Part shown: positions 2,623-39,128 of the stretch, piece by piece | Position numbering within the stretch: position 1 is the first letter of the stretch | Layout: the number at the start of each line of letters is the position of its first letter | DNA from: Betaproteobacteria bacterium | Lineage (GTDB): Bacteria; Bdellovibrionota_B; Oligoflexia; Silvanigrellales; Silvanigrellaceae | Assembly (NCBI GenBank): GCA_016868315.1 | Contig: VGHE01000016.1 | Coordinates: 1 to 45,384 of the forward strand | Direction of reading: 5' to 3' | DNA length: 45,384 bases | The notes under the pieces: generated by a model | The model's input: only the letters and a program-made list of their open reading frames with translations | Database searches by the model: none | Told to the model about the DNA's origin: nothing | Program-made: the position numbers and the translations under genes

Positions 2623-3510
2623 GTGTCGAGGGATTCGGGGTTGGAGAACCTCAAAAAACTAGAGCGTGATGTGATTGGATTTCAGAAGCTCGCTGAATAT
2701 CTGCGGCTTGAAACTGGAATCAACCTGAACCTCTCCGACAAGAACCAAACCCTTCTTGCAAGCCGGGTTCTCAAGATTCTTCCGAACTTGGGGTTTGCTG
2801 ATTATTCTGCTCTTCATGCGGCACTCATTTCTGGTCACCGTGATGCGCGAGATTTGTTCATTAATATTATCACTACAAACACCACTCACTTCTTTAGAGA
2901 AAATCAGCATTTCGATGTACTTGGGCGCGTGGCGCGTGACCTTCTCAGTCATCCCGAGAAGAAAAAAACACGCGAAATCCGGGTGTGGTGTGCCGCCTGC
3001 AGCACGGGTGAAGAAGCCTACAGCATTTCTATGGTGCTCAATTCGATTTTTCCTGCGCAGGATGGTTGGAACCTCCGCATTCTCGCGACTGACATCGACA
3101 CCGACGTTCTTCGCACAGCCATTCGTGGGGTCTACCCGCAGGAGGCGCTCGATAGCGTTCCTGAACAATATCGTTCTTGTTTTGAAGCGGGAAAGGGTGA
3201 TTCGCTGGGATATGCGCGCGTTCGTAAGAGCATTCGCGATCACATCACTTTTGCACCCTTCAATCTCATGACTCTGAGCTATCCATTTCAATCAAAGTTC
3301 GATTTTATCTTCTGTAGGAACGTTATGATTTATTTCGACAGACCGGAAATCCATTCGACTATCCGGAAAATCGAAGGCTGCCTGCGGCTGGGTGGATTTT
3401 TGTTCATTGGACATTCGGAAACCGTCGTTGGTGTCACCCCAGGTCTCAAATCAAGAGCACCCGCCGTGTACGAGCGGTTGAAAGTGATTCGGAAAGGAGA
3501 GGCTGCATGA
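2623..3510 (+). CDS. cheR: Chemoreceptor glutamate methyltransferase CheR
   Basis: CheR transfers methyl groups from S-adenosylmethionine to glutamates of chemoreceptors, setting adaptation. The protein has 295 residues. It shows the N-terminal helical CheR domain (about 15-85), the FREN motif at 91-94, the SAM-binding CAACSTGEEAYS segment near 123-134, the acidic ATDID at 155-159 and the FCRNVMIYFD motif at 230-239. GTG at 2623 follows AGGAG at a spacing of six. The gene starts the plus-strand chemotaxis operon, and its stop overlaps the ATG of the next gene by four bases, which implies translational coupling. It is the only CheR in the window, so both kinases here may depend on it or on enzymes encoded elsewhere. 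Confidence 0.95.
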   Translation: MSRDSGLENLKKLERDVIGFQKLAEYLRLETGINLNLSDKNQTLLASRVLKILPNLGFADYSALHAALISGHRDARDLFINIITTNTTHFFRENQHFDVLGRVARDLLSHPEKKKTREIRVWCAACSTGEEAYSISMVLNSIFPAQDGWNLRILATDIDTDVLRTAIRGVYPQEALDSVPEQYRSCFEAGKGDSLGYARVRKSIRDHITFAPFNLMTLSYPFQSKFDFIFCRNVMIYFDRPEIHSTIRKIEGCLRLGGFLFIGHSETVVGVTPGLKSRAPAVYERLKVIRKGEAA

Positions 3511-5807
3511 ACTCCCGGAAATTGAACGAGACTCTTCTTATTGTAGAAGACGATGCTGACATGCGGGATGCCATCCTGGAGAGTCTTCAAGGCTTGGGAT
3601 GCTCTCTTTTTGCCTGCGCCAATGCCGAGGACGCGCTTTCATTTGCACGGGAGAATCCGTGCTTTGCAGTCTTTAGCGATTATCGCATGCCCGGAATGAA
3701 TGGCATCGAATTTTGCAGGCGTCTCAAAATGGATATGCCGCGCATTAATTTTGTTGTGCTTACGGGATTTGCTGACAAGCAGACCGTTCTCGACGCTTTC
3801 AGGGTTGGTATCGACGACCTTCTTGAGAAGCCTGAAGATCTCGTGCGGCTCAGGGATAAAGCCGACGCATTTGTGCGAGCCCGAATTGAGGAGCTCAACA
3901 AAGAGCAACAGGAAATGATTGTATTGCGGCAGGTCTTCTGTGAGGAGGCCAACGACATTCTCAGAGACCTCGATACCTACATATTCAAGCTGGAGGAAGT
4001 CCCACCACAGCCTGAAGTTGTTGATGTGTTGTTTAGGAAGGCACACACTCTCAAGGGCTCTGCAGCTGCATTTCCTGGAACTGAAAAACTCTCCATGGTG
4101 ACTCATGCGTACGAGAACCTTCTACAGAGCCTTCGAAAGGGAAAGCTCAAGCCCTCACAAGCGTTGACGCATGTTCTTCTTCAGGGAGCCGACGTCATCA
4201 AGAGCCTTGTGTCAGACTTCGAGGAAGGGCGCGAACGGGCTGTGAACCTGCAGCCTTTTGTTGAAGCTTTGAATCGCTGGACAGAGGGGCAGGTGGGTGC
4301 TCACACACAGAACCAGCAGCCCGCACCAACTCCTTCTCAAACTCCAGCACCAACACCTGCAGTCAATGTAACTGCCGAGTTAATTGTTCCTGAATCGGTA
4401 ACGCCTGCACCAGCACGCGTGCCCGAAGACGATGGGATTGCCTGGGTTGAGCAGCCTGAAAATTTAGTAACCAAATCAATTTCTGAGGTTGCTGCTGTAC
4501 CTTCAAGTGTTGCCGCGGAGGTGCCCTCGGGCGCGCAACCCATGACTGCATATTCTCAAGCTGTAAAGGCAAGCGAAGGTGCACCCAAAGAAGAGGAAGA
4601 CGACGGGCTATTTGTGTCTATTGAGAAACTCAATTCTTTCATGGAACTCTCTGGGGAGTTGGTTGTTCTCAAGAACGCTTATCATGCCGTTGTAAAGCAG
4701 GTGCTGAAGTTTGAGCTACCACAAGAGCAAAAGCAGCGCCTCGAGGAAATGAATCAGTCGCTCGACAAGATCTCGGAGCAGATCCAGGGACAGATCATGG
4801 ATGTCCGCAAGGTACAGTTGAAGGTCGCCTTTCAAAAGTTCCCGCGCATTGTCCGACAGGTCTCTCATGATCTCCAAAAGCAAGTGCGCTTAGAGATGAC
4901 TGGCACGGAGCTCGGCGTCGACAAGAGTATTGCGAAAGCACTTTCGAGCGCACTCGTTCACGTTGTGCGAAATGCAGCGGATCATGGGATTGAGATGCCC
5001 GAAGTTAGAATTTCGAGGAACAAGCCCGAGTGTGGCGTGGTGCGCATTCATTCAAACCAGATTGCTGACAGCATTGTCATTACCATTGACGATGACGGAG
5101 CGGGGATTGATCCTGAACAAATCAAGAAGAAGGCCTTGGAGAAGGGATTAATTACCCGCGACACAATGATGAACATGCCTGCCCATGCAGCTATTGACCT
5201 TATTTTCCTTCCAGGTTTTTCGACCGCTGAGAAAATAACCAGTGTCTCGGGACGTGGTGTTGGCATGGATGTTGTGCGCACTGAAATTTCAAAGCTTGGC
5301 GGTACGTGCTCGATCGAATCGAATGCAGGCTTGGGAACTCGCCTGAGTATTGTGCTCCCGGTTCCTAAAACAGTCCTTGTTGAAAACACCTTGCTTACGG
5401 AAAGTAGCGGACACCAGATTGTTGTTCCACTTGTCAGTATCTCCAAAATTACTCCTATCAAAGACCTGATTCTCTCCAAGGTTGATGGCCGCATGACCTG
5501 TCAGCACGAGGGAGTCACCATTCCTTTGGGCGACTATCGGTCATTTATCGACTCTCCGCTTAAGGGCAGTGCGATGGAAAAAGTTGATTTTGCACCCGAT
5601 GCACTCGTGCTGATCATCTCTCACAAAGAACACGCGTTGGCTTTGGTAGTCGATCGAGTCGTGGATCAGCTTGAGGCAGTGGTTCGGCCTTTTGATAACG
5701 TCGTCGAAAAACTGCTCGGATTCAAAGGCACAAGCTTGCTCGACTCAGAGCATGTCGCTTTTGTTCTTGATGCAGAGTCTCTTGTGGGGGCTGCATATGC
5801 TGCTTAA
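3507..5807 (+). CDS. cheA: Receiver-HPt-CheA hybrid histidine kinase
   Basis: Chemotaxis kinase of 766 residues with an unusual order. Residues 8-125 are a receiver domain with all key residues: acidic E14-D16, phospho-acceptor D58 in SDYRMPG, T86 and K108. An HPt domain follows, with phospho-His H180 in AHTLKGSAA. A Pro/Thr/Ala-rich linker covers about 265-360. The dimerisation segment is at 365-440. The GHKL ATPase core has N-box HVVRNAADHG (485-494), DDDGAGID (528-535) and GRGVGMD (582-588). A CheW-like domain ends the protein. No recognisable P2 domain sits between HPt and dimerisation parts. Hybrid CheA proteins such as FrzE or CheAY carry the receiver at the C-terminus; here it is at the N-terminus. 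The start overlaps the cheR stop as ATGA. Confidence 0.93.
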   Translation: MNSRKLNETLLIVEDDADMRDAILESLQGLGCSLFACANAEDALSFARENPCFAVFSDYRMPGMNGIEFCRRLKMDMPRINFVVLTGFADKQTVLDAFRVGIDDLLEKPEDLVRLRDKADAFVRARIEELNKEQQEMIVLRQVFCEEANDILRDLDTYIFKLEEVPPQPEVVDVLFRKAHTLKGSAAAFPGTEKLSMVTHAYENLLQSLRKGKLKPSQALTHVLLQGADVIKSLVSDFEEGRERAVNLQPFVEALNRWTEGQVGAHTQNQQPAPTPSQTPAPTPAVNVTAELIVPESVTPAPARVPEDDGIAWVEQPENLVTKSISEVAAVPSSVAAEVPSGAQPMTAYSQAVKASEGAPKEEEDDGLFVSIEKLNSFMELSGELVVLKNAYHAVVKQVLKFELPQEQKQRLEEMNQSLDKISEQIQGQIMDVRKVQLKVAFQKFPRIVRQVSHDLQKQVRLEMTGTELGVDKSIAKALSSALVHVVRNAADHGIEMPEVRISRNKPECGVVRIHSNQIADSIVITIDDDGAGIDPEQIKKKALEKGLITRDTMMNMPAHAAIDLIFLPGFSTAEKITSVSGRGVGMDVVRTEISKLGGTCSIESNAGLGTRLSIVLPVPKTVLVENTLLTESSGHQIVVPLVSISKITPIKDLILSKVDGRMTCQHEGVTIPLGDYRSFIDSPLKGSAMEKVDFAPDALVLIISHKEHALALVVDRVVDQLEAVVRPFDNVVEKLLGFKGTSLLDSEHVAFVLDAESLVGAAYAA

Positions 5808-6267
5808 TGAAGATATCGTTAATGGACTTCAAGAAGCTTTGGAAGAGCGTAAAAACAAGGGACCGCACGCGAGCTTCCTCTTGGTGCAGGTCGGGGAGCA
5901 GAAATTTGGTCTGCCCATGTCGCAGGTCATCGAGGTTCTTGAATCGAGGCGTTGGAATCCGCTGCCTGTGAATCGTCCCAACATCTTGGGTGTGGTGAAT
6001 CTCCGCGGTGTTGTTTTCACCATTTATCATTTGGCAAGTCTGCTCGGTAAGGGCGGAATGCACGAGGCTCAATCAGGCCAGGGCTGCATTATTGTTGTGA
6101 CCGATGGTCGACGCCGCTTCGGGCTTTGGGTTGAAAACATGCTGCACGTTCAGGATTTTCCGATCAACGAACTGCATGCACTCAATGAAAGACAATTACT
6201 CGTGACTCATCTTTGCGTCGTGGAACAAGAATCCATTCTTATGATGGACATCGAACGAGTTGCTTGA
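5797..6267 (+). CDS. cheW: Chemotaxis adaptor CheW (second copy)
   Basis: CheW-family adaptor of 156 residues. ATG at 5797 overlaps the end of the preceding kinase gene by 11 bases and follows GGGGG at about seven bases. The conserved adaptor core is visible: a start like SFLLVQVGEQKFGLPMSQV, then NILGVVNLRGVVFTIYHLASL, then the FGLWVENMLHVQDF segment. It is likely the partner of the receiver-HPt-CheA kinase encoded just upstream. The stop (TGA at 6265-6267) is directly followed by the ATG of the CheD fusion gene, so the operon is continuous. Confidence 0.92.
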   Translation: MLLNEDIVNGLQEALEERKNKGPHASFLLVQVGEQKFGLPMSQVIEVLESRRWNPLPVNRPNILGVVNLRGVVFTIYHLASLLGKGGMHEAQSGQGCIIVVTDGRRRFGLWVENMLHVQDFPINELHALNERQLLVTHLCVVEQESILMMDIERVA

Positions 6268-7830
6268 ATGAACAATATTTATCTTTTCCCGGGACACTTT
6301 GTGGTTTCGGTCGAGCCGGCTGAGGTGACCACCATTCTCGGGTCATGTGTGGCTGTTGCATTGCATGATCCGTCGCGGCGAATCACGGCCTTGAATCACT
6401 ATCTTTTGCCTCAGCCGGGCGGAACCGAAGGAGCTTCGAGTTTACGCTATGCAGGTGTATCTCTGCCCAGAATGCTTGAAGAGATTCTCTCCCAAGGTGC
6501 TGCTCTCGATCGTCTTCAGGCTAAGGTTTATGGTGGCGCACGTGTGATTGACAACATTGGCTTGGGAGATTCGATAGGTCGCACGAACGTAGATTTTGCC
6601 CTGGCTTGGCTTAAGGAAAGGAGAATTCCGGTCTTGGCCAATGACCTCGGTGGCAATGTTGGACGCAAAATTATCGTCAATACTCAAGACTTCTCGGTCA
6701 AACACCAGCTTATGAACCGGAGCGGCAGCGTCGATACTTCGGGTGGCCAGTCTACTCTGATCGATCGTGTTGCCAAGGTCGTCGTGGTCGATGACTCAGC
6801 TACAGTGCGCTCGATCTTCAGTCGTGTTCTCACTCAGTCTGGCAAAGTTGAGGTTGTTGGCGTTGCCCGAGATGCTTTTGAGGCGCGCGAGGTTATCGTT
6901 GAAAAAAATCCAGACGTAGTGCTTCTTGATATCGAGATGCCCGGTATGTCTGGAGTTAAGTTTCTCGAAAAGTTGATGCAGCATTTTCCATTGCCGACTT
7001 TGATGGTCTCATCATTGCGACCCGACGATGATGCTACTCTTCGGGCGCTAGAATTAGGTGCGCTTGAGTTTGTGCATAAGCCTGCACAATTCGATCCGAA
7101 TGCACTTCGATTTTTTGCGGAAAGCCTGGTGCAGAAGGTCGTTGCAGCTGCAAGTCAATTGGAGCGTGTGAAATCGGGGCGTTTCAAGCGTCCTGCATCC
7201 ACTTCTGCTGTCCGTCCATCCGCTGGAAGACTATCCGAGGGTTTGAATCTCGTACTTGTGGGTGGGAACGGCGGGGCACATCAGGACTTGGAAGTCTTGT
7301 TGCAGTCTCTCCCTCACGATACGCCACCCGTTTTGGTTTCTGTTAGCTCAGTCTCTGCATTACTGTCTTCGTATATTGAAAAGTGGAAAAAGTTGACCCG
7401 GCTGGATTTAAAGGTTGCGTCTGATGGGGTCTGCCCGATGCGCGGCACTGTCTATTTTGCTCCAGCGGGTCAGCATTTGATGCTGGAGAGTTCGGTCGGA
7501 CAGCTGGTTATGCGATTGAGTTCTACTGCTCCCGTGTGCTTGCAGCTTCCCTCGGCTGATGTGCTTTTTCAGTCTGCACTGAAAGCCGTTGCACCTGGTC
7601 AACATGGCGGTGTGGTGGGCATTTTAATGAGCGGTTTGGGTCAAGATGGAGTGCAAGGGCTGCTTCAATTGCATGAGCGCAAGGCGCAAACTTTTGTGAC
7701 CCACCCAGAAGCAAGCTCTTTTGCATTCGCGCCACAGGCTGCCATCTCCGTAGGTGCGGCAGAGCATATTCTTCGACCCGAGGAGTTCGCCACCCGACTC
7801 ATGAGTTTGAGAAGTAAGGCGGCTGTATGA
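6268..7830 (+). CDS. CheD-receiver-degenerate CheB fusion protein
   Basis: A 520-residue three-part fusion. Residues 1-150 are CheD, the receptor glutamine deamidase, with T21, C27 in LGSCV and H44 in NHYLLP placed as in the known CheD catalytic triad. Residues 170-290 are a receiver domain with D175/D176, phospho-acceptor D221 in LLDIEMPG, S248/S249 and K271. Residues 325-515 resemble the CheB methylesterase fold, but two catalytic residues are gone. The GASTGG loop reads VGGNGG, so Ser is replaced by Gly/Asn at 333-334. The QHMP His position reads VSSV, with Ser360 there. Only the Asp of SGLGQDG (D460) remains. I infer a working deamidase, a phosphorylatable receiver and an inactive esterase-like domain. 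The next gene encodes the intact esterase and overlaps this one. Confidence 0.9.
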   Translation: MNNIYLFPGHFVVSVEPAEVTTILGSCVAVALHDPSRRITALNHYLLPQPGGTEGASSLRYAGVSLPRMLEEILSQGAALDRLQAKVYGGARVIDNIGLGDSIGRTNVDFALAWLKERRIPVLANDLGGNVGRKIIVNTQDFSVKHQLMNRSGSVDTSGGQSTLIDRVAKVVVVDDSATVRSIFSRVLTQSGKVEVVGVARDAFEAREVIVEKNPDVVLLDIEMPGMSGVKFLEKLMQHFPLPTLMVSSLRPDDDATLRALELGALEFVHKPAQFDPNALRFFAESLVQKVVAAASQLERVKSGRFKRPASTSAVRPSAGRLSEGLNLVLVGGNGGAHQDLEVLLQSLPHDTPPVLVSVSSVSALLSSYIEKWKKLTRLDLKVASDGVCPMRGTVYFAPAGQHLMLESSVGQLVMRLSSTAPVCLQLPSADVLFQSALKAVAPGQHGGVVGILMSGLGQDGVQGLLQLHERKAQTFVTHPEASSFAFAPQAAISVGAAEHILRPEEFATRLMSLRSKAAV

Positions 7831-8453
7831 ATAAAAGCACAATGTCGCAATTCAAAGACGATGCTGATTTGGTGGTTTGTATAGCAGCATCGACAGGTGG
7901 CCCCGAGGCATTGCGACAGGTGCTTTCAAAATTACCAGCCAATATCCCTCCGACTCTCGTTGTGCAGCACATGCCTGCATTATTCACAAAAAATCTTGCA
8001 CGGAGCCTGAGTCAAGAATGTGCATTCCCAGTGCGCGAGGCAGCAGACGGAGACACCCTGCGTGCTGGTGTTGTGCTTCTCGCTCCGGGTGATTTTCATA
8101 TGACCTTGGCTAAAATTGGCGGACGCTATTTTGTTCGGGTTAAGCACGACGATCCTGTTCATGGTGTGCGGCCGGCGGCTGATCCTTTGTTCGATTCTGT
8201 GGCTCGAGCTGCAGGTGCGCGTGCCATTGGTGTCGTGCTGACAGGGATGGGGCGGGATGGTGCCCAGGGGATTCTCAAAATGCGCCAGGCCGGAGCCTTC
8301 ACAATTGCTCAAGACGAGCCCAGCTGCGTGGTTTTTGGAATGCCCAAGGAAGCCATTGCGCTAGGTGGAATCCAAATTGTCAGTCCTCTCGCAAAGATAC
8401 CCGCCATCATTATCTCAGAAATCGCAAGAAGAACTATTGCAAAGGCGGGTTGA
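7827..8453 (+). CDS. cheB: Stand-alone CheB methylesterase domain (no receiver)
   Basis: CheB removes methyl groups from receptor glutamates, and also deamidates in some species. This 208-residue protein is only the C-terminal catalytic domain. The triad is complete: S22 in CIAASTGGPEAL, H48 in VVQHMPALFTK and D144 in LTGMGRDGAQG. The usual N-terminal receiver of CheB, which inhibits the enzyme until phosphorylated, is missing. The gene starts inside the stop of the CheD-receiver-pseudo-CheB gene (ATGA overlap), so the two proteins are probably made together in similar amounts. A second ATG at 7842 is possible. Control by the receiver of the upstream pseudo-enzyme is an attractive inference but not shown by sequence. 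Confidence 0.92.
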   Translation: MNKSTMSQFKDDADLVVCIAASTGGPEALRQVLSKLPANIPPTLVVQHMPALFTKNLARSLSQECAFPVREAADGDTLRAGVVLLAPGDFHMTLAKIGGRYFVRVKHDDPVHGVRPAADPLFDSVARAAGARAIGVVLTGMGRDGAQGILKMRQAGAFTIAQDEPSCVVFGMPKEAIALGGIQIVSPLAKIPAIIISEIARRTIAKAG

Positions 8454-14527: not shown

Positions 14528-15127
14528 TTAGTCCTCGATGCTTGGCATCAGGCGCCTCAAAGACAAAACCACGTGCGACATCGGCAGGCCGACCACATTC
14601 GTGTAGCTCCCCTCAATGGATTCCACAAAGGTCAGAGCGTGTCCCTGGATTCCATACGAGCCAGCTTTGTCGAATGGCTCACCGCTCGCAATATAACGCT
14701 CAATTTCGTCTGTGAACAGATCGCGGAAGAGCACCTGTGTTTGCACAAGCGTGCAGTGCAGAACCTCTCCGGTTGTGCCGTTGCACAGGGCGAATCCTGT
14801 CATAACCCGGTGCGTTCTTCCGGAGAGTTTTCCCAACATGCGTCGTGCTTCGGCTGTATCAGAGGGCTTCTCCAGGACTTCGTTATCGTATGCAACCACT
14901 ATTGTGTCAGCGGCCAGAACGATAGCCTTGGCCACGGCCACGGGCTGGGTATTGCAGACAGCCAACGCCTTTTCTTTGGCGTTGCGCTGGACATAATCTT
15001 CCGGGCGCTCGCCATGCCGGCGCTTTTCCTCAATGTTAGCGACAATTACTTCGTGCTCAAATCCTGCAGCCTTGAGCAGCTCTCGGCGTCGCGGCGATGC
15101 ACTCGCAAGAACAATCTTTTCAAACAT
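14528..15127 (-). CDS. maf: Maf-family nucleoside triphosphate pyrophosphatase
   Basis: House-cleaning enzyme that hydrolyses non-canonical or excess nucleoside triphosphates to monophosphates. About 199 residues, normal length. Maf motifs are all present: LASASPRRRELL near the N-terminus, VLAADTIV, the GKLSGRTHRV segment, KAGSYGIQG and IEGSYTNVVGLPM. The ATG at 15127 is about ten bases behind GGGGAG. The ATG at 15136 almost touches that site and is less likely. It is the first gene of a maf-yggS operon, divergent from the second cheA. Confidence 0.93.
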   Translation of the reverse strand: MFEKIVLASASPRRRELLKAAGFEHEVIVANIEEKRRHGERPEDYVQRNAKEKALAVCNTQPVAVAKAIVLAADTIVVAYDNEVLEKPSDTAEARRMLGKLSGRTHRVMTGFALCNGTTGEVLHCTLVQTQVLFRDLFTDEIERYIASGEPFDKAGSYGIQGHALTFVESIEGSYTNVVGLPMSHVVLSLRRLMPSIED

Positions 15128-15165
15128 ATTCAACATTCTCCCCTCTGCAGGTGTTGTCCAGCATG

Positions 15166-15171
15166 ATTATA
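15166..15171 (-). promoter_or_regulatory. Candidate -10 box upstream of maf
   Basis: A perfect TATAAT preceded by TG lies on the minus strand about 39 bases before the maf ATG, in the gap between maf and the second cheA. No good TTGACA is found 16-18 bases further upstream (CTGCCC region), so the call rests on the -10 match alone. Confidence 0.35.
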
Positions 15172-15290
15172 CAGTCAAGCACTTGTGTGGGCAGAAGGGT
15201 CCCTCTCCGACAATTTCGCAGCCCACTGGGCGAGGGCTGACCACGAGCCTAGAAATTGAGCACCTAAACTGGGGTCGAGGTGGGGTGGAT

Positions 15291-17942
15291 ATGGAACTCA
15301 GTCAAGACATGTTGAGAGAGCTCAGGGCAGAGAGCGGCGAGCTGATTGAGCGCTTCTCCAGTGTCTGGATCCTCATGAATTCAGTTCTTGAAAAGGGTCA
15401 GCAGGTTCGCCGCTCCGAGGTCAATGAGCTGTTCAGAATCCTTCACACTTTGAAGGGTTTGGCCGAGATTGCAACACTGACTCGAGTTGTCTCTGCTCTT
15501 CATCTTATTGAAGACCGGCTCGCCGAAGTGCGCGCCGAAAGATCATCGCTCGAATCGGCAGATCTTGAGGTTCTTGCAGAGTGTCAACTTCTGCTTGAAA
15601 AGATATTTGTGTCCGCTCACCAAGCACCCAACGAGTCGTTGTACAGCGACCTGGAAATGCAGGCTCAGGTTTTCTGTGTTGGTGCGCAGCCTGTTGCGCA
15701 CGGCGAACGGATTTCCCATTCTTGCATGCCGTTGAGCACCTCCGAGAAGGAGCTTTGGGCATCATACACGCAGCGCCCCGAGTTTTTTTATGCGTTCGAA
15801 TGTCATGGAAATTTTGAGGATTTGCGTTCTCGCATCGTCTCAGTTGCTGACATCGTGATTGAGCGGATTCATGATGGCCGCGCGCTTTTTGTTTTCGCAA
15901 CCGAGCTCGATCAGAATTTGATTGAACAGATTTTGGACGACAAAGTGCGTTTGTTGCAAAAAGCTGTTTCGAGTCTTCGCTCCTTAGGTGCTGCTTGGTC
16001 GGGCCTGTGGGATCGAAATCCGCAAGCCACATTTGATTTGGAATCGGCTGGCTTGCCAAGAAGTGACAACTCCTCAGCAGAAGATTTACTTGGCTCCTTC
16101 CTGCCCGAGGGTTCCCACGACGTTGTTGCTCAAGAGGCGTCCGGAGAAAAAGTTTTTGCTCAGTCCAAACCGGGACAAACACAAACGAGCGAAATCGGAC
16201 CCGAAGTCGACAGAGAAATGATTGCGGACTTCCTACAAAACGGGGATGAGCTACTTGAGTGCCTGACGCAGAGCATGCTTGTTCTGGAGAATAACCCATA
16301 CGATTCGTCCTGTATTGAAGAGATTTTTCGTGCCGCGCACACCATCAAGGGAACAGCCGGAATGATCGGTTTTGGTTGCGTAGAGCAGCTCTGTCATGCA
16401 CTTGAGAATACCTTTGACAGAATTAGGAAAAAACAGCTGAAGATCACCCCGGCACTCACGGATACCTTGCTCGTTGGCTGGGATATTGTTCGTCATCTTT
16501 TCGATTTGCTTCGGGCAGGGCAACAGCCTCTCGCAAATATTGACGACTATTTGAACAGGCTCAGCAGAGCTGAGCGTGGCGAGCAAGTTCCCGTTGAGAA
16601 GGCGGCTCTGCTTAATCCGAGCAAAACACCAGCAACTCCAATTGGCGCTGGCGGAAATAGTCTGAAATCAGAAACTCCCAAGACAGAAGCTATCGAAACA
16701 ATTCGAGTTGACCTCAAGCGGCTCGATAGTCTTGTGAATCTTGTGGGTGAACTGGTTATCGATCGTACCCGCTTTGCGCGCATCGAAGAAGCAATGAGAC
16801 TACGCGGAACAAACGCTGAACTCAGCCACCAGATGGCAGAGAGTGTTTTGCTGTTCGGGCGTCACATGAATGAAGTTCAGAACATCATCATGAAAGTGCG
16901 CATGGTTCCTGTTGGTAATGCCTTTTACAAGTTCACACGTGTGGTGCGTGGTTTGTCTCGGCAATGTGGCAAAGAGGTTGAACTTGTTATTGAGGGTGGT
17001 GAAACAGAGCTCGACAAAACGTTGGTTGAAGAACTCGGTGATCCTTTGGTGCATTTGATTCGCAACAGCATAGATCATGGAATTGAAGAGCCTGAAGAGC
17101 GAATCAAGGTGGGTAAATCCAGAAAAGGTAGCATTCGTCTCTCGGCACAGCAGCAAGGCAACATGATTGTTATTTGTGTTGAAGATAATGGTAAAGGATT
17201 AGACGTCGAGAGAATTAGAGCCAAGGCCATCAAGAATGGGCTGATAAAAGAAACCGAGAACCTTGGGCGAAAAGATATTTTTAATTTGATTTTCGAGCCA
17301 GGTTTTTCCACAGCTGCAAAAGTGACCAACATCTCTGGCCGAGGTGTCGGGATGGACGTGGTTAGAAAGAACATTCAGAAGCTTAAGGGTGTCGTTGATC
17401 TGGACTCGAATATGGGCGAAGGAACGAAGATCACAATCAAGCTCCCAATTACTTTGGCTATCGTTCCAGGTTTAATGGTTGAAGTCGCTGGAGAATGTTT
17501 CGCAGTGCCACTCGTCAACGTGATCGAGAGCATTGGTATTTCGCGCGATCAGATTCAGCAGATGGGACAGGCTCAGTTTGTCAAATTGCGTGACGAAGTC
17601 ATTCCTCTTGTCCGCTTCTCTGATGTTCTTGGGCTCAATCAGATTGATTCAAATTTCTGGTACAAGTCACCTTCGCCGACACCAACACTCAGTCGCCGGC
17701 GTGAGCGCCTCGTGTTTGTTGTGCTTGGAATAGGCTCGGAGCGGCTCGGTATGGTGGTCGATCGTCTGGCGGGGCAGCAGGAAATTGTCATCAAGCCGCT
17801 CGGTCAGCTTTTGGGGCATCAGAGTGGCTTCGCTGGTGGTTGTGTTCTGGGTGATGGTCGCGTTGCACTTGTCATCGATGTTGCAGATGTGATGGGTGTA
17901 GATGCAATTCAGCGAGGTGTTCATGCTCGAAGAACTGCGTAA
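15291..17942 (+). CDS. cheA: Chemotaxis histidine kinase CheA with two HPt domains
   Basis: A second CheA kinase, 883 residues. ATG at 15291 follows GAGGTG at eight bases; the frame is open upstream only because of lack of stops opposite maf. Domains: first HPt with H52 in ILHTLKG; a segment at about 160-230 of the small alpha/beta type; second HPt with H350 in RAAHTIKGTAG; linker; dimerisation helices 470-540 including ELVIDRTRFARIEE; GHKL core with HLIRNSIDHG (588-597), EDNGKGLD (631-638), FEPGFST and GRGVGMD (683-689); CheW-like domain from about 715. No receiver domain. With cheW directly downstream (20-bp overlap) it forms the core of a second chemosensory system. Confidence 0.94.
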   Translation: MELSQDMLRELRAESGELIERFSSVWILMNSVLEKGQQVRRSEVNELFRILHTLKGLAEIATLTRVVSALHLIEDRLAEVRAERSSLESADLEVLAECQLLLEKIFVSAHQAPNESLYSDLEMQAQVFCVGAQPVAHGERISHSCMPLSTSEKELWASYTQRPEFFYAFECHGNFEDLRSRIVSVADIVIERIHDGRALFVFATELDQNLIEQILDDKVRLLQKAVSSLRSLGAAWSGLWDRNPQATFDLESAGLPRSDNSSAEDLLGSFLPEGSHDVVAQEASGEKVFAQSKPGQTQTSEIGPEVDREMIADFLQNGDELLECLTQSMLVLENNPYDSSCIEEIFRAAHTIKGTAGMIGFGCVEQLCHALENTFDRIRKKQLKITPALTDTLLVGWDIVRHLFDLLRAGQQPLANIDDYLNRLSRAERGEQVPVEKAALLNPSKTPATPIGAGGNSLKSETPKTEAIETIRVDLKRLDSLVNLVGELVIDRTRFARIEEAMRLRGTNAELSHQMAESVLLFGRHMNEVQNIIMKVRMVPVGNAFYKFTRVVRGLSRQCGKEVELVIEGGETELDKTLVEELGDPLVHLIRNSIDHGIEEPEERIKVGKSRKGSIRLSAQQQGNMIVICVEDNGKGLDVERIRAKAIKNGLIKETENLGRKDIFNLIFEPGFSTAAKVTNISGRGVGMDVVRKNIQKLKGVVDLDSNMGEGTKITIKLPITLAIVPGLMVEVAGECFAVPLVNVIESIGISRDQIQQMGQAQFVKLRDEVIPLVRFSDVLGLNQIDSNFWYKSPSPTPTLSRRRERLVFVVLGIGSERLGMVVDRLAGQQEIVIKPLGQLLGHQSGFAGGCVLGDGRVALVIDVADVMGVDAIQRGVHARRTA

Positions 17943-35137: not shown

Positions 35138-35665
35138 TTATGGGCTGCGCTCGTTGATCTGCAGAATCAATCGTTCCACCAGGGTTTCGAAAAGCCGAGT
35201 GCCGACAAAGGTTTGTTTGGTTTTTTGATCGCGAACGGTGTCTGTTTCCAAAACCAGATAAGCTGCGAGAGGATTCGGGCGGCGCACAAACACCACCTGA
35301 CTCGTGACGTCACCGCTCCAGCGGCGCTGGATAGGGCGCGCTTCAGTCGCGGAAAACAGCATGAGTGTGTCAGTTTCTTCACCAGGTTCCAGCAAAAGTC
35401 CCGGGTGTCCTGGGATACGAAGATAAAGATATGGGCTTTTTCCAAGAACTCCGTATTCATCCTCGAGAATCACATCGCCGCTCAAACACTTCACACCCTC
35501 GAGCGGATTTCCGTTTTTAAATTCATCGAGCGCAGCGATGTCTCTGAGAAAAGCTTCAAATTGAAGTTTGAGATTAGCAATAATTTTGTGCGCAGGAGCA
35601 TCCTGTTCAAGACGCTCCGCACTGAAATGCTTACTCTTCGCCTTTAAGAGTTTCATCAAATCCAT
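35138..35665 (-). CDS. Unknown 175-residue protein coupled to a DUF4301-like gene
   Basis: Probably cytoplasmic; no signal peptide or membrane segment. ATG at 35665 follows AGGA at seven bases and overlaps the end of the upstream gene by 35 bases, so the two are almost certainly co-translated. The N-terminus is a Lys-rich helix (MKLLKAKSKHFSAERLEQ). The centre has beta-like stretches (SPYLYLRIPGHPGLLLEPGEE; SQVVFVRRPNPLAAYLVLE). I recognise no family. The genetic link suggests it acts with the DUF4301-like protein. Confidence 0.7.
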   Translation of the reverse strand: MDLMKLLKAKSKHFSAERLEQDAPAHKIIANLKLQFEAFLRDIAALDEFKNGNPLEGVKCLSGDVILEDEYGVLGKSPYLYLRIPGHPGLLLEPGEETDTLMLFSATEARPIQRRWSGDVTSQVVFVRRPNPLAAYLVLETDTVRDQKTKQTFVGTRLFETLVERLILQINERSP

Positions 35666-37868
35666 AGGAACGTCTGTCCTGTCCCAAGCTGTCGAGCAGC
35701 GTTTTGTGTGGCTTGAACAATGTGCGCGGCACTTCTACAAACAACACATTTGTGCGCGCCGAATTTCCAATCAATTCGTAGAGCACAGTCTCATGGTAGC
35801 AAACTTTGCGACCCCTGAATTCTTTGCGCGCGAGTAGCCAAAAATGCTCGTCAAAAAGCTGACCAGGCTGAACAATTCTGCCGGAGCGCGGGTTCTGTGT
35901 ATGACTGCGTTGGTGTGTTCTGAGTTCGAAAAACACGAGCACCGGGTTGAAGTGTGTCGCGCGGCCTTTGTTGCCAAAATATTCTTGAGCATCTTCCTTT
36001 GATGCGTGGGGCATTTCGAGACAAATCTTAACGTGTGTTCCGTCGGGAAGCTGCGCAAACACGGGGCCACCACCCACATCACCAATCTCTTTGCGCACCA
36101 CTCCAAAGACACTCAAAGGTCGCGCAAGTTGTTGCTGGAGCCAGTCCCATTTCGCAAAAGTGCTAAGATTGTCGGGCAGGGGCTGCCAGTGGAAAAGATT
36201 TCCAAGAACCTGCTGAATGTTCTCTACAGTTAGTCCGAGGTTATGCGCCTCTTGAATGAGAGAGCTCGGCATCAACTGTCCTTGCGCGGTGCTTGGGATG
36301 AGTTGAGTCAGGAACTGAATAGCGACAACAGCATCGTGATTCTTGAGGCGATCGTTGTTGTTTGAACTGCGGCAGTGCGGCAAGAAATCCTCAACCTCGG
36401 CACGCAGAAATTCAAGTGTGTCTCGCAAAAGTCTGAACGTTTCCGCCACACCGCTCAGTTCTTGTTGACGCTCAGCCTGCGTCCCAATCACATTGTCGAT
36501 ATTGCGGACGTGCAAGCATTCTATGTTCGGCCATTGTGCCGCAATGTCGGGAAATAGGTTCAATAGTTCGCCATGCCCCGCAGCCACCGAGCTGTACGTA
36601 TTTTCTTCGTTGATGACGGGCGTCCCGTTCTCATTGAAACGCAGGGTGCACAATTCTAAACCTTGTTCGAGCACGGTGGTGTCGCTCGCAGTGCGGTGCG
36701 TTGTTGGGCGAAGCCAGTTGGGTGCGAAGGAGGTTCCCGATAGGTCGAAAACGTTTTGAGCCTGGCGAATGAGTTTTTCTCGGCCATGCTCAATTTCATC
36801 CTTGAATTGCCCTGTCTGCTGAAAGGGCGCAACATAGACACTCACTGCACTAGGAAGCAGAGATATTTGCTCCACCAGCTTGAGAAATAGAAAGGAATCA
36901 CCCTCGGCGGTTGTTGGTACAAGTGCTTTGGGGTGGCCTGAAAATTTCTCAATCAACACATGTGCAGCCGCAAAACATCGAAGTGCAAGACGCTCCTTTT
37001 CCGTGAGCTCGCGCCGCAGGCGCTTGCCTTGGTTTCGTGCTTCGCTGGGAGGTTGGCTTTGAAGTGCTTCGAGCCAGTGCATTTCTTTAGCGCTGCTACG
37101 TGGTGTGTGCGACGCACTTCGGCGGCCAAACAGACCCGCATCCCAGTGGATACGCCAATGATTACTTTCCGGAGCAGCGTCGCGCTGATTTTTTTCAGAA
37201 ACGTTTGAATTGTCTGTACCGAATTGAACTTCAACTTCACGCCCATCAGTAAAATAGAGCTCGAGCGCATTCGCCATTGCGTTGAAATCTTCGCAGACCT
37301 CGGTTTTCTCCCAGTCCATGAGCAACTGAGGGATTACCTTGATGTCTGCAGGCAAGGGGAGTGCAGCAAGCACAGACAACGAATCGAGCCGCTTCGAGCG
37401 GTGCGCGGTCAGTTCCCCCTGCCCAGACTTTTCTGCGATCCTTTTACAGAATTCGTGCAGTTCGGGCACTTGGGTATGGACGTCTTGCAGGAAGCGTTGC
37501 AGTGAGGCCATGAATCGAGATGCAGCACCTGCCGCTGGGATAAATGTCCCGAGATGCTGGCGACACCAATATTGGAAGGCCGCTCTGCGCGCACGGCGCT
37601 GAGCATTGGTCAGGCGCTCTCCCTCTGCAAAACGAACGAGAGTCTTCCATGGGATCACTCCACCGTTGCTGGTCGTACAGGCTCCAACAATGGGAAGGGT
37701 TGTTTCGCGACCTGAGGTAATGACACCCAGGATGCGCTCTTGGTGCAGCTGGACGCGGTCGTAGTTGAGCCCGGCTCGAATCACCTGCTCGCGGTTGAGT
37801 TCTCCGGTTGTCATAGCCCCAGCATCACCGCACAGACCGTTCACACGCATGCTTCCTAAATGCCACAT
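35631..37868 (-). CDS. DUF4301-like protein with nucleotidyltransferase-type features
   Basis: A 745-residue protein. ATG at 37868 follows AGGAG at seven bases; the frame is open further upstream opposite rlmN but that part looks non-coding. Features that recall DUF4301 proteins are FIPAAGAASRFM (a nucleotidyltransferase-like first loop), SGHPKALVPTT (compare the family LPKGLLPFH), a GHGELL segment, HVRNIDNVIG, VRKEIGDVGGGPVF, HFNPVLVF and NVLFVEVPRTLFKPHKTL. Members are usually about 500 residues, so this one carries about 200 extra, mainly at the N-terminus. Biochemical role unknown; sugar-nucleotide chemistry is only an inference from the first loop. Confidence 0.75.
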   Translation of the reverse strand: MWHLGSMRVNGLCGDAGAMTTGELNREQVIRAGLNYDRVQLHQERILGVITSGRETTLPIVGACTTSNGGVIPWKTLVRFAEGERLTNAQRRARRAAFQYWCRQHLGTFIPAAGAASRFMASLQRFLQDVHTQVPELHEFCKRIAEKSGQGELTAHRSKRLDSLSVLAALPLPADIKVIPQLLMDWEKTEVCEDFNAMANALELYFTDGREVEVQFGTDNSNVSEKNQRDAAPESNHWRIHWDAGLFGRRSASHTPRSSAKEMHWLEALQSQPPSEARNQGKRLRRELTEKERLALRCFAAAHVLIEKFSGHPKALVPTTAEGDSFLFLKLVEQISLLPSAVSVYVAPFQQTGQFKDEIEHGREKLIRQAQNVFDLSGTSFAPNWLRPTTHRTASDTTVLEQGLELCTLRFNENGTPVINEENTYSSVAAGHGELLNLFPDIAAQWPNIECLHVRNIDNVIGTQAERQQELSGVAETFRLLRDTLEFLRAEVEDFLPHCRSSNNNDRLKNHDAVVAIQFLTQLIPSTAQGQLMPSSLIQEAHNLGLTVENIQQVLGNLFHWQPLPDNLSTFAKWDWLQQQLARPLSVFGVVRKEIGDVGGGPVFAQLPDGTHVKICLEMPHASKEDAQEYFGNKGRATHFNPVLVFFELRTHQRSHTQNPRSGRIVQPGQLFDEHFWLLARKEFRGRKVCYHETVLYELIGNSARTNVLFVEVPRTLFKPHKTLLDSLGQDRRSYGFDETLKGEE

Positions 37869-38030
37869 GAAACAGCTCCTTGAATTTCTTTTGGGCAACT
37901 TTACCTTCCGTCGGGTCGCTTCGCCAGGGCAGCACCCTCCCTTTCGAAAGGATATGAATGTCAAAGAATCAAAGAGTTGCTTGACCCCAGGGGGCTTTGC
38001 TGAATAAGGCGTTAACGGTGGAGGCAAGCC

Positions 38031-39128
38031 ATGCCGGCGCATATCCTTGGAATAACCAGAGAAAATCTGGAAAGCTTCGTTGTACTCGGTAGCGGCGTGA
38101 AGAGCGCTGGGCACCGCGCGGCGCGCCTGTTTGAGGGTGTGTACGGCCGAACGGGGCAACCCGCCTGGCCCCCGGTCTTCCCCGTTGAGGTGCATCAAGC
38201 GTCTCTTGAGCGTTTGCGTAAGTCCTTCGATTTTCAACTTCCGCTCCGAGTCACTCGTTTCGAGAACAGTGCGATGGATGGCTCAAGCAAGTTGGTTATG
38301 AGCCTCGCCGATGGACTTGAGATTGAAACCGTTTTGATTCCCGAACGTGGGCGTTTGACACAGTGTCTTTCGACTCAAGTCGGGTGCGCACAGGGTTGTC
38401 GTTTTTGCCAGACCGGACGCATGGGGCTCATCCGCAGTCTCTCGACAGCCGAAATCGTCGGTCAGGTCGTGGCAGCTGAGCAATGGCGGCGCGAGCAAGG
38501 TGGAGCGCTTGCGGAGTATTCACGCATCAGCAACTTAGTCTTCATGGGCATGGGTGAGCCGCTCGACAATCTCGACAACGTTCTTGAAGCAATTTCTATA
38601 TTCACCGATTTGAAAGGCCTGAGCTTCAGTCACAACAAGATTACAGTTAGCTCTGTGGGTCTTCTACCGCAGCTCAATCGATTTTTGTCTGAATCTAATG
38701 CTTGTTTGGCGTTGAGTTTGCATTCGCCTTTCGATGCAGAACGCTCGAAAGTTATGCCAGTCAACAAGGCTCATCCTATTGGTCAGGTCATTCAAACTCT
38801 GCGTGAATTTGCACTTCGCTACAAACGTCCTTACATGATTCAGTACACGTTGCTGAACAATGTGAACGACTCACGAGAGCACGCAGAAGCCCTAGCTGCA
38901 CTTCTCAGGGGGCTCGACGTTAAAATCAATCTCATTCCATTAAATGAGCATGAGGGAGCAGCTTTTCGTCGCCCCGAATTGGCTCGTATTTGGTCTTTTC
39001 GCGATGTTCTCAAAAGTGAAGGACACGTGGTAACCGTTCGGCTTTCTAAGGGTCGAGACATTGCCGCAGCATGTGGTCAACTCATCAAGAACACCAAACC
39101 AAACGCAAAAGTTGAGTCTGAAGCTTGA
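38031..39128 (+). CDS. rlmN: Radical SAM methyltransferase RlmN (23S rRNA A2503)
   Basis: Adds the C2 methyl group to A2503 of 23S rRNA, and to A37 of some tRNAs. The 365-residue protein shows the radical-SAM cluster motif C119-x3-C123-x2-C126 (CAQGCRFC), the NLVFMGMGEPLDNLDNV segment, VSSVGLLPQL and LSLHSPFDAERSKVMPVN. C348 in AAACGQL is the cysteine expected to carry the methyl group. GGAGG lies before the ATG. Cfr-like resistance proteins share this architecture, but the length and motifs fit housekeeping RlmN. Divergent from the DUF4301-like gene and exactly abutting the next, convergent gene. Confidence 0.94.
   Translation: MPAHILGITRENLESFVVLGSGVKSAGHRAARLFEGVYGRTGQPAWPPVFPVEVHQASLERLRKSFDFQLPLRVTRFENSAMDGSSKLVMSLADGLEIETVLIPERGRLTQCLSTQVGCAQGCRFCQTGRMGLIRSLSTAEIVGQVVAAEQWRREQGGALAEYSRISNLVFMGMGEPLDNLDNVLEAISIFTDLKGLSFSHNKITVSSVGLLPQLNRFLSESNACLALSLHSPFDAERSKVMPVNKAHPIGQVIQTLREFALRYKRPYMIQYTLLNNVNDSREHAEALAALLRGLDVKINLIPLNEHEGAAFRRPELARIWSFRDVLKSEGHVVTVRLSKGRDIAAACGQLIKNTKPNAKVESEA

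Follow-up and report, generated by a model that had tools for sequence, protein, structure and literature searches.

The window analysed here, a stretch of 45,384 nucleotides, contains a chemosensory gene cluster, and all features of the cluster given below lie on the forward (+) strand. A CheR methyltransferase (2623–3510; Pfam CheR) shares its operon with a CheA kinase, hereafter CheA1 (3507–5807), in which Pfam places receiver, Hpt, dimerisation, HATPase and CheW domains in that order. The adjoining gene (5671–6267; Pfam CheW) encodes a coupling protein, CheW', the start codon of which is uncertain, and the order CheA1, CheW', fusion is conserved. The fusion itself is a 520-residue protein (6268–7830) that joins a CheD, a receiver and a CheB-like domain. 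Its stop codon overlaps, within an ATGA at 7827–7830, the start codon of a second gene (7827–8453), which encodes a CheB of 208 residues. Seven matches to the MCP domain were found in the window genome, six of them above the cut-off. Elsewhere in the window, an open reading frame of 868 residues (35631–38237) matches DUF4301 at its C-terminal end only (profile positions 355–502 of 507).

The domains of the fusion were delimited by Pfam and by alignment with proteins of known structure. Residues 1–150 (6268–6717) form a CheD deamidase domain which, aligned with CheD of T. maritima (2f9z_C), retains the CheD fold and the active-site residues C27 and H44. It is followed by a receiver (Response_reg, residues 168–290; 6769–7137) with the phospho-acceptor D221. 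Residues 327–512 (7246–7803) match CheB_methylest over the full length of the model with 102.7 bits, and the alignment with Salmonella CheB (1A2O) likewise supports the fold. The catalytic triad is however broken in this domain: N334 (codon 7267–7269) stands where Salmonella CheB has its catalytic Ser, S164, and S360 (7345–7347) where it has its catalytic His, H190, while the catalytic Asp (D286) is kept as D460 (7645–7647). Orthologues were found over the whole length in an uncultured Silvanigrella sp. of the same genus (G001; 71% identity) and in Oligoflexia bacterium BroJett040 (G058; 42–43%). An AlphaFold2 model of the fusion, built from an alignment of three sequences, reached only a pLDDT of 41 and a pTM of 0.28 and was discarded.

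The 208-residue protein matches CheB_methylest alone, with 214.3 bits, and its alignment with 1CHD shows a complete triad (S22, H48 and D144); we predict an active catalytic domain. The N-terminal receiver that is usual, but not universal, in CheB is missing. The initial annotation had described both genes in these terms, a CheD-receiver fusion to a CheB-like domain that has lost Ser and His and kept Asp, and an overlapping gene for an intact CheB domain lacking a receiver, and the open reading frames, the Pfam matches and the two alignments bear it out. In the Silvanigrella sp. (L033), the gene behind the fusion overlaps it in the same way and encodes a full receiver-CheB of 366 residues; relative to this locus, about 158 codons are missing in frame from the 208-residue CheB directly past its start codon, and the two CheBs are sisters in the tree (SH-aLRT 99). 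BroJett040 (L034) has the fusion plus a full CheB of 355 residues. In the window genome, the completeness of which is 94.8%, no CheB domain was found beyond those of the 520- and 208-residue proteins. CheB reading frames of about 200–226 residues are numerous in the window's own phylum.

Fusion and CheB genes are linked in eight genomes (the window, G001, G058, G068, G163, G252, G161 and G153); they overlap by 4 bases in seven of the pairs and by 1 base in G058. The second gene encodes a full receiver plus CheB in G001 and in the other six linked pairs, so that the receiver-less form is peculiar to the window species among the eight. Judging from the loss of its receiver, the 208-residue CheB is probably constitutively active, and this species would then have phospho-feedback on receptor modification via the fusion or not at all. 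Receiver-less CheB catalytic domains have been described before, in Campylobacter jejuni CheB (PMC3879368) and in Myxococcus FrzG and CheBa, for which no receiver match was found (PMC3945109); the difference here is that the gene is overlapped by that of a receiver-bearing pseudo-CheB. Salmonella CheB can be aligned with the complete receiver and CheB portion of the fusion, but in the fusion Ser and His are missing and a CheD domain is added at the N-terminal end. The second gene of the window has the complete triad, and its product, the predicted active protein, has no receiver.

We then surveyed CheD in 197 genomes around G058 and read the loci. A CheD-pseudoCheB fusion, with or without the receiver, was present in 29 of them, G058 included, and the window genome and G001 bring the total to 31; the copy in G122 is split over two contigs. 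The residue at the position of the nucleophile is Asn in 30 of the 30 related fusions read, and the catalytic His is lost in all of them (Ser, Ala or Thr instead) while the Asp is invariant; the losses of Ser and His are thus not due to chance. In a CheB tree from which the columns around the catalytic sites had been excluded, the pseudo-CheB fusions (30 rows) form one side of a single branch with an SH-aLRT of 100, and hence one monophyletic clade. The dN/dS of the pseudo-CheB domain, estimated from close pairs, is 0.017–0.05, with CheD and the receiver in a similar range, and the core CheB residues are retained. Two of the traits expected of a regulatory pseudoenzyme, clade-wide loss of catalytic residues and purifying selection after that loss, were found here; binding or regulation of an active partner would be the third. 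These data indicate that the pseudo-CheB is an old, maintained family under strong purifying selection, and they vindicate the initial annotation in seeing a conserved pseudo-esterase.

The remainder of the fusion is equally well preserved. C27 and H44 of CheD occur in all 29 pseudo-fusions having that column, and each of the 29 receivers read from pseudo-fusions has D175, D176, D221, S248 and K271; to judge by these residues, the receiver ahead of the CheB domain should be phosphorylatable. With the phosphorylation site and the CheD Cys and His intact, both the input and the CheD output look functional, and the CheB chemistry alone is gone. One genome (G161; L114, 4255–5394) encodes a shorter CheD-pseudoCheB fusion, of 379 residues and without a receiver, adjoining a full receiver-CheB. 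Other lineages within this wider group encode CheD-receiver-CheB fusions of the same domain order but with an intact triad (L104, L105, L108 and L119–L123). Unlike the pseudo-fusions, they have the Ser and His, no second CheB or CheA1 was seen beside them, and both the CheB tree and the CheD tree set them apart from the pseudo-fusions.

The relation of the pseudo-CheB to the true CheB was analyzed across the same genomes. Partner CheBs, assigned by score gap with the addition of the adjacent gene of G252, were found in 27 of the 29 surveyed genomes with a fusion. Two genomes, G117 (L097) and G121 (L095), have CheA1 and the pseudo-CheB fusion and no other CheB was found in them, which reflects an assembly gap or a real loss of the active partner. 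A single clade unites the partner CheBs of genomes with a pseudo-fusion, and the receivers of the fusions group as sisters to those of the partner CheBs (support 94), which suggests an old duplication and makes a shared interface possible. The gene pair, proposed from the window alone, does recur in relatives, translationally coupled in the eight linked cases. In most Bdellovibrio-like genomes, however, the partner CheB lies far from the fusion, yet belongs to the same CheB clade, and among the 39 genomes of the survey having a partner CheB the fusion is absent from 12. The suggestion that phosphorylation input and catalysis sit on separate proteins stands for the window species only; elsewhere the true CheB retains its receiver, and the split finds no support as a general layout, with CheB encoded far off in the Bdellovibrio-like genomes and at least 12 genomes having CheB without pseudo-CheB.

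A tighter association was observed with the kinase. CheA1 and CheW' lie upstream of nearly every fusion, and in the CheA tree the CheA1 sequences (27, SH-aLRT 100) form a clade found only in pseudo-CheB loci. Matches to the CheA1 profile of at least 673 bits were obtained in 26 of the 197 genomes, all with a pseudo-fusion, the next match scoring 513 bits; CheA1 is accordingly present in 26 of the 29 pseudo-fusion genomes of the survey. It was not detected in the other three, namely G161, which has the receiver-less fusion, G252, and G163, where the locus meets a contig edge. The pseudo-CheB fusion thus co-occurs more tightly with CheA1 (Jaccard index 0.90) than with partner CheB (0.66), although the genomes counted are not independent trials, because only some 4–5 loss events carry the argument. 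The rates of the fusion domains covary with those of CheA1 (rho 0.32) more than with those of CheB (0.19), a weak signal to be taken as a hint, and for the pseudo-CheB domain itself covariation with CheB is not significant.

The losses are consistent with this association. In the absence of CheA1, CheD is usually unfused: nine genomes without CheA1 (G103, G097, G090, G063, G093, G087, G069, G007 and G012) have a lone CheD of this clade. In G103 and G097 the flanks match those of G094, which carries the fusion; CheD is kept, and CheA1, CheW' and the receiver plus pseudo-CheB are gone on both sides of it. Conversely, G002 and G054 have CheA1 without CheD, and in view of these two genomes we gave up the rule that pseudo-CheB accompanies every CheA1. 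In G002, of the same genus as the window, the syntenic locus (L210, G002:C25:33000-52000) holds CheW, CheA1, CheW' and DAHP synthase in this order, with the flanking genes retained and CheR, fusion and CheB missing, and no match to CheB or CheD was found in the whole genome. This genome apparently has a chemosensory system without methylation-based adaptation. The joint absence of CheR, fusion and CheB, with CheA1 still in place, assigns the fusion to the set of enzymes that modify receptors. For the same reason we discarded a reading in which pseudo-CheB would be a CheA1 output with no bearing on receptor modification.

The architecture of the kinases varies among these loci. The receiver of the window CheA1 (3507–5807) lies ahead of the Hpt domain, whereas the Bdellovibrio-like orthologues, of about 575–588 residues, are devoid of the N-terminal receiver part, their profile match beginning near position 128. 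The window has a second CheA (15033–17942) about 9 kb downstream of the first operon, with two Hpt stretches, no Pfam receiver and a CheW gene behind it; it occupies the same position in G001 and G002. In G058 a single operon (L125, G058:C1:247000-264000) encodes CheW, a 118-residue receiver protein, CheA2, CheR, CheA1, CheW', the fusion and CheB. With its two CheAs, this operon seems to represent the ancestral gene order, and the split clusters of Bdellovibrio could have arisen from it.

Taken together, we tentatively favour, at somewhat less than even probability, a reading of the fusion as a conserved adaptation protein, in which the receiver and the dead CheB domain together form an arm that has no catalytic role of its own, is controlled by phosphorylation and serves the CheD deamidase. 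In ordinary CheB, phosphorylation frees or positions the CheB domain on the receptors. CheA1 would phosphorylate the receiver of the fusion, phosphorylation would free or position the CheB-like domain on the chemoreceptors in the same manner, and the arm would thereby gate or localise CheD; the true methylesterase is, at the level of the sequence, made from the next, translationally coupled gene. This reading draws on a catalytic site that is dead but maintained (Asn everywhere, His lost, Asp kept, low dN/dS), and on CheA1, which tracks the fusion, the receiver plus pseudo-CheB half being gone where CheA1 and CheW' are gone. It is further favoured by the lack of any CheC match in the window genome, since CheC is the usual partner of CheD. 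CheC was likewise not matched in G001 or G058, but 22 of the 31 genomes do have CheC matches, and this distribution leaves a replacement of CheC neither excluded nor proven. Against the CheD arm stand the three fusion genomes without detected CheA1, the two with CheA1 and no CheD, and the eight coupled fusion-CheB pairs, which would suit a control of CheB equally well.

Such a control, put forward in the initial annotation, is possible, if on balance improbable: the pseudo-CheB would bind the true CheB, as a heterodimer or with its receiver docked on the active site, control it in trans and, in the window species, replace the lost receiver. Translational coupling in distant lineages, the single clade of partner CheBs, their presence in nearly all fusion genomes and the probable duplication that relates the two receivers all speak for it, as does the interaction of CheD with CheB in Halobacterium (PMC3579733). 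The partner, however, keeps a working receiver of its own everywhere except in the window, 12 genomes have it without pseudo-CheB, the two genes are far apart in most Bdellovibrio-like genomes, and the rate covariation of the pseudo-CheB domain is not significant. Control of CheB in trans thus fits the gene coupling and the lost receiver of the window, and fits the wider distribution less well than a CheD gated by CheA1. The more inclusive scheme, in which a phospho-gated pseudo-methylesterase acts in trans, with the input (receiver and dead CheB) set apart from catalysis (by CheD within the fusion and by the separate CheB protein), and in which the window CheB gave up its receiver because the pseudo-CheB supplies the switch, we consider doubtful.

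It is also unlikely that the pseudo-CheB serves as a receptor-docking or scaffold module which anchors CheD to the methylation helices or protects the sites there from CheB, the receiver merely tuning it. The receiver-less fusion of G161, encoded beside CheB, implies some use without phosphorylation, and the core CheB residues are kept; but the receiver is perfect in 29 of 30 members, and in the lineages left with CheD alone every loss of CheA1 is accompanied by loss of the domain. Residual or newly acquired chemistry of the CheB-like domain, with an Asn where the Ser would stand, is very improbable: the Asn shows no drift at all and the Asp persists, yet with the His changed to Ser, Ala or Thr no triad can form. 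A decaying duplicate, the alternative raised initially, or a sequencing artefact is scarcely credible for the fusion in spite of the lost catalytic residues and the loss of receiver plus pseudo-CheB in several lineages, given the pair in relatives, the low dN/dS, the invariant substitutions, the clade across 31 genomes and frames open throughout. A dead copy so strictly conserved and inherited with CheA1 suggests a working control part, not a decaying gene.

In a search of the open-access literature, no description of a pseudo-CheB or of a CheD-CheB fusion was found. The parts and folds were already known; the papers searched held no precedent for a CheB that is fused to CheD, has lost catalysis throughout a family and is tied to a dedicated kinase. 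A functional likeness exists with the CheC-CheD systems of B. subtilis and T. maritima, where CheD is regulated by a phospho-signal-linked protein, as summarised in PMC3579733. Here the candidate controller of CheD is the fused receiver and dead CheB, and, in contrast to those systems, CheC has no match in the window genome. If the proposed reading is true, the gate and scaffold of a textbook phospho-gated enzyme would have been kept and its chemistry discarded, in a protein joined to the other receptor deamidase and co-inherited with its own kinase. Adaptation feedback could then be wired in a second manner, with CheD placed under kinase control without CheC.
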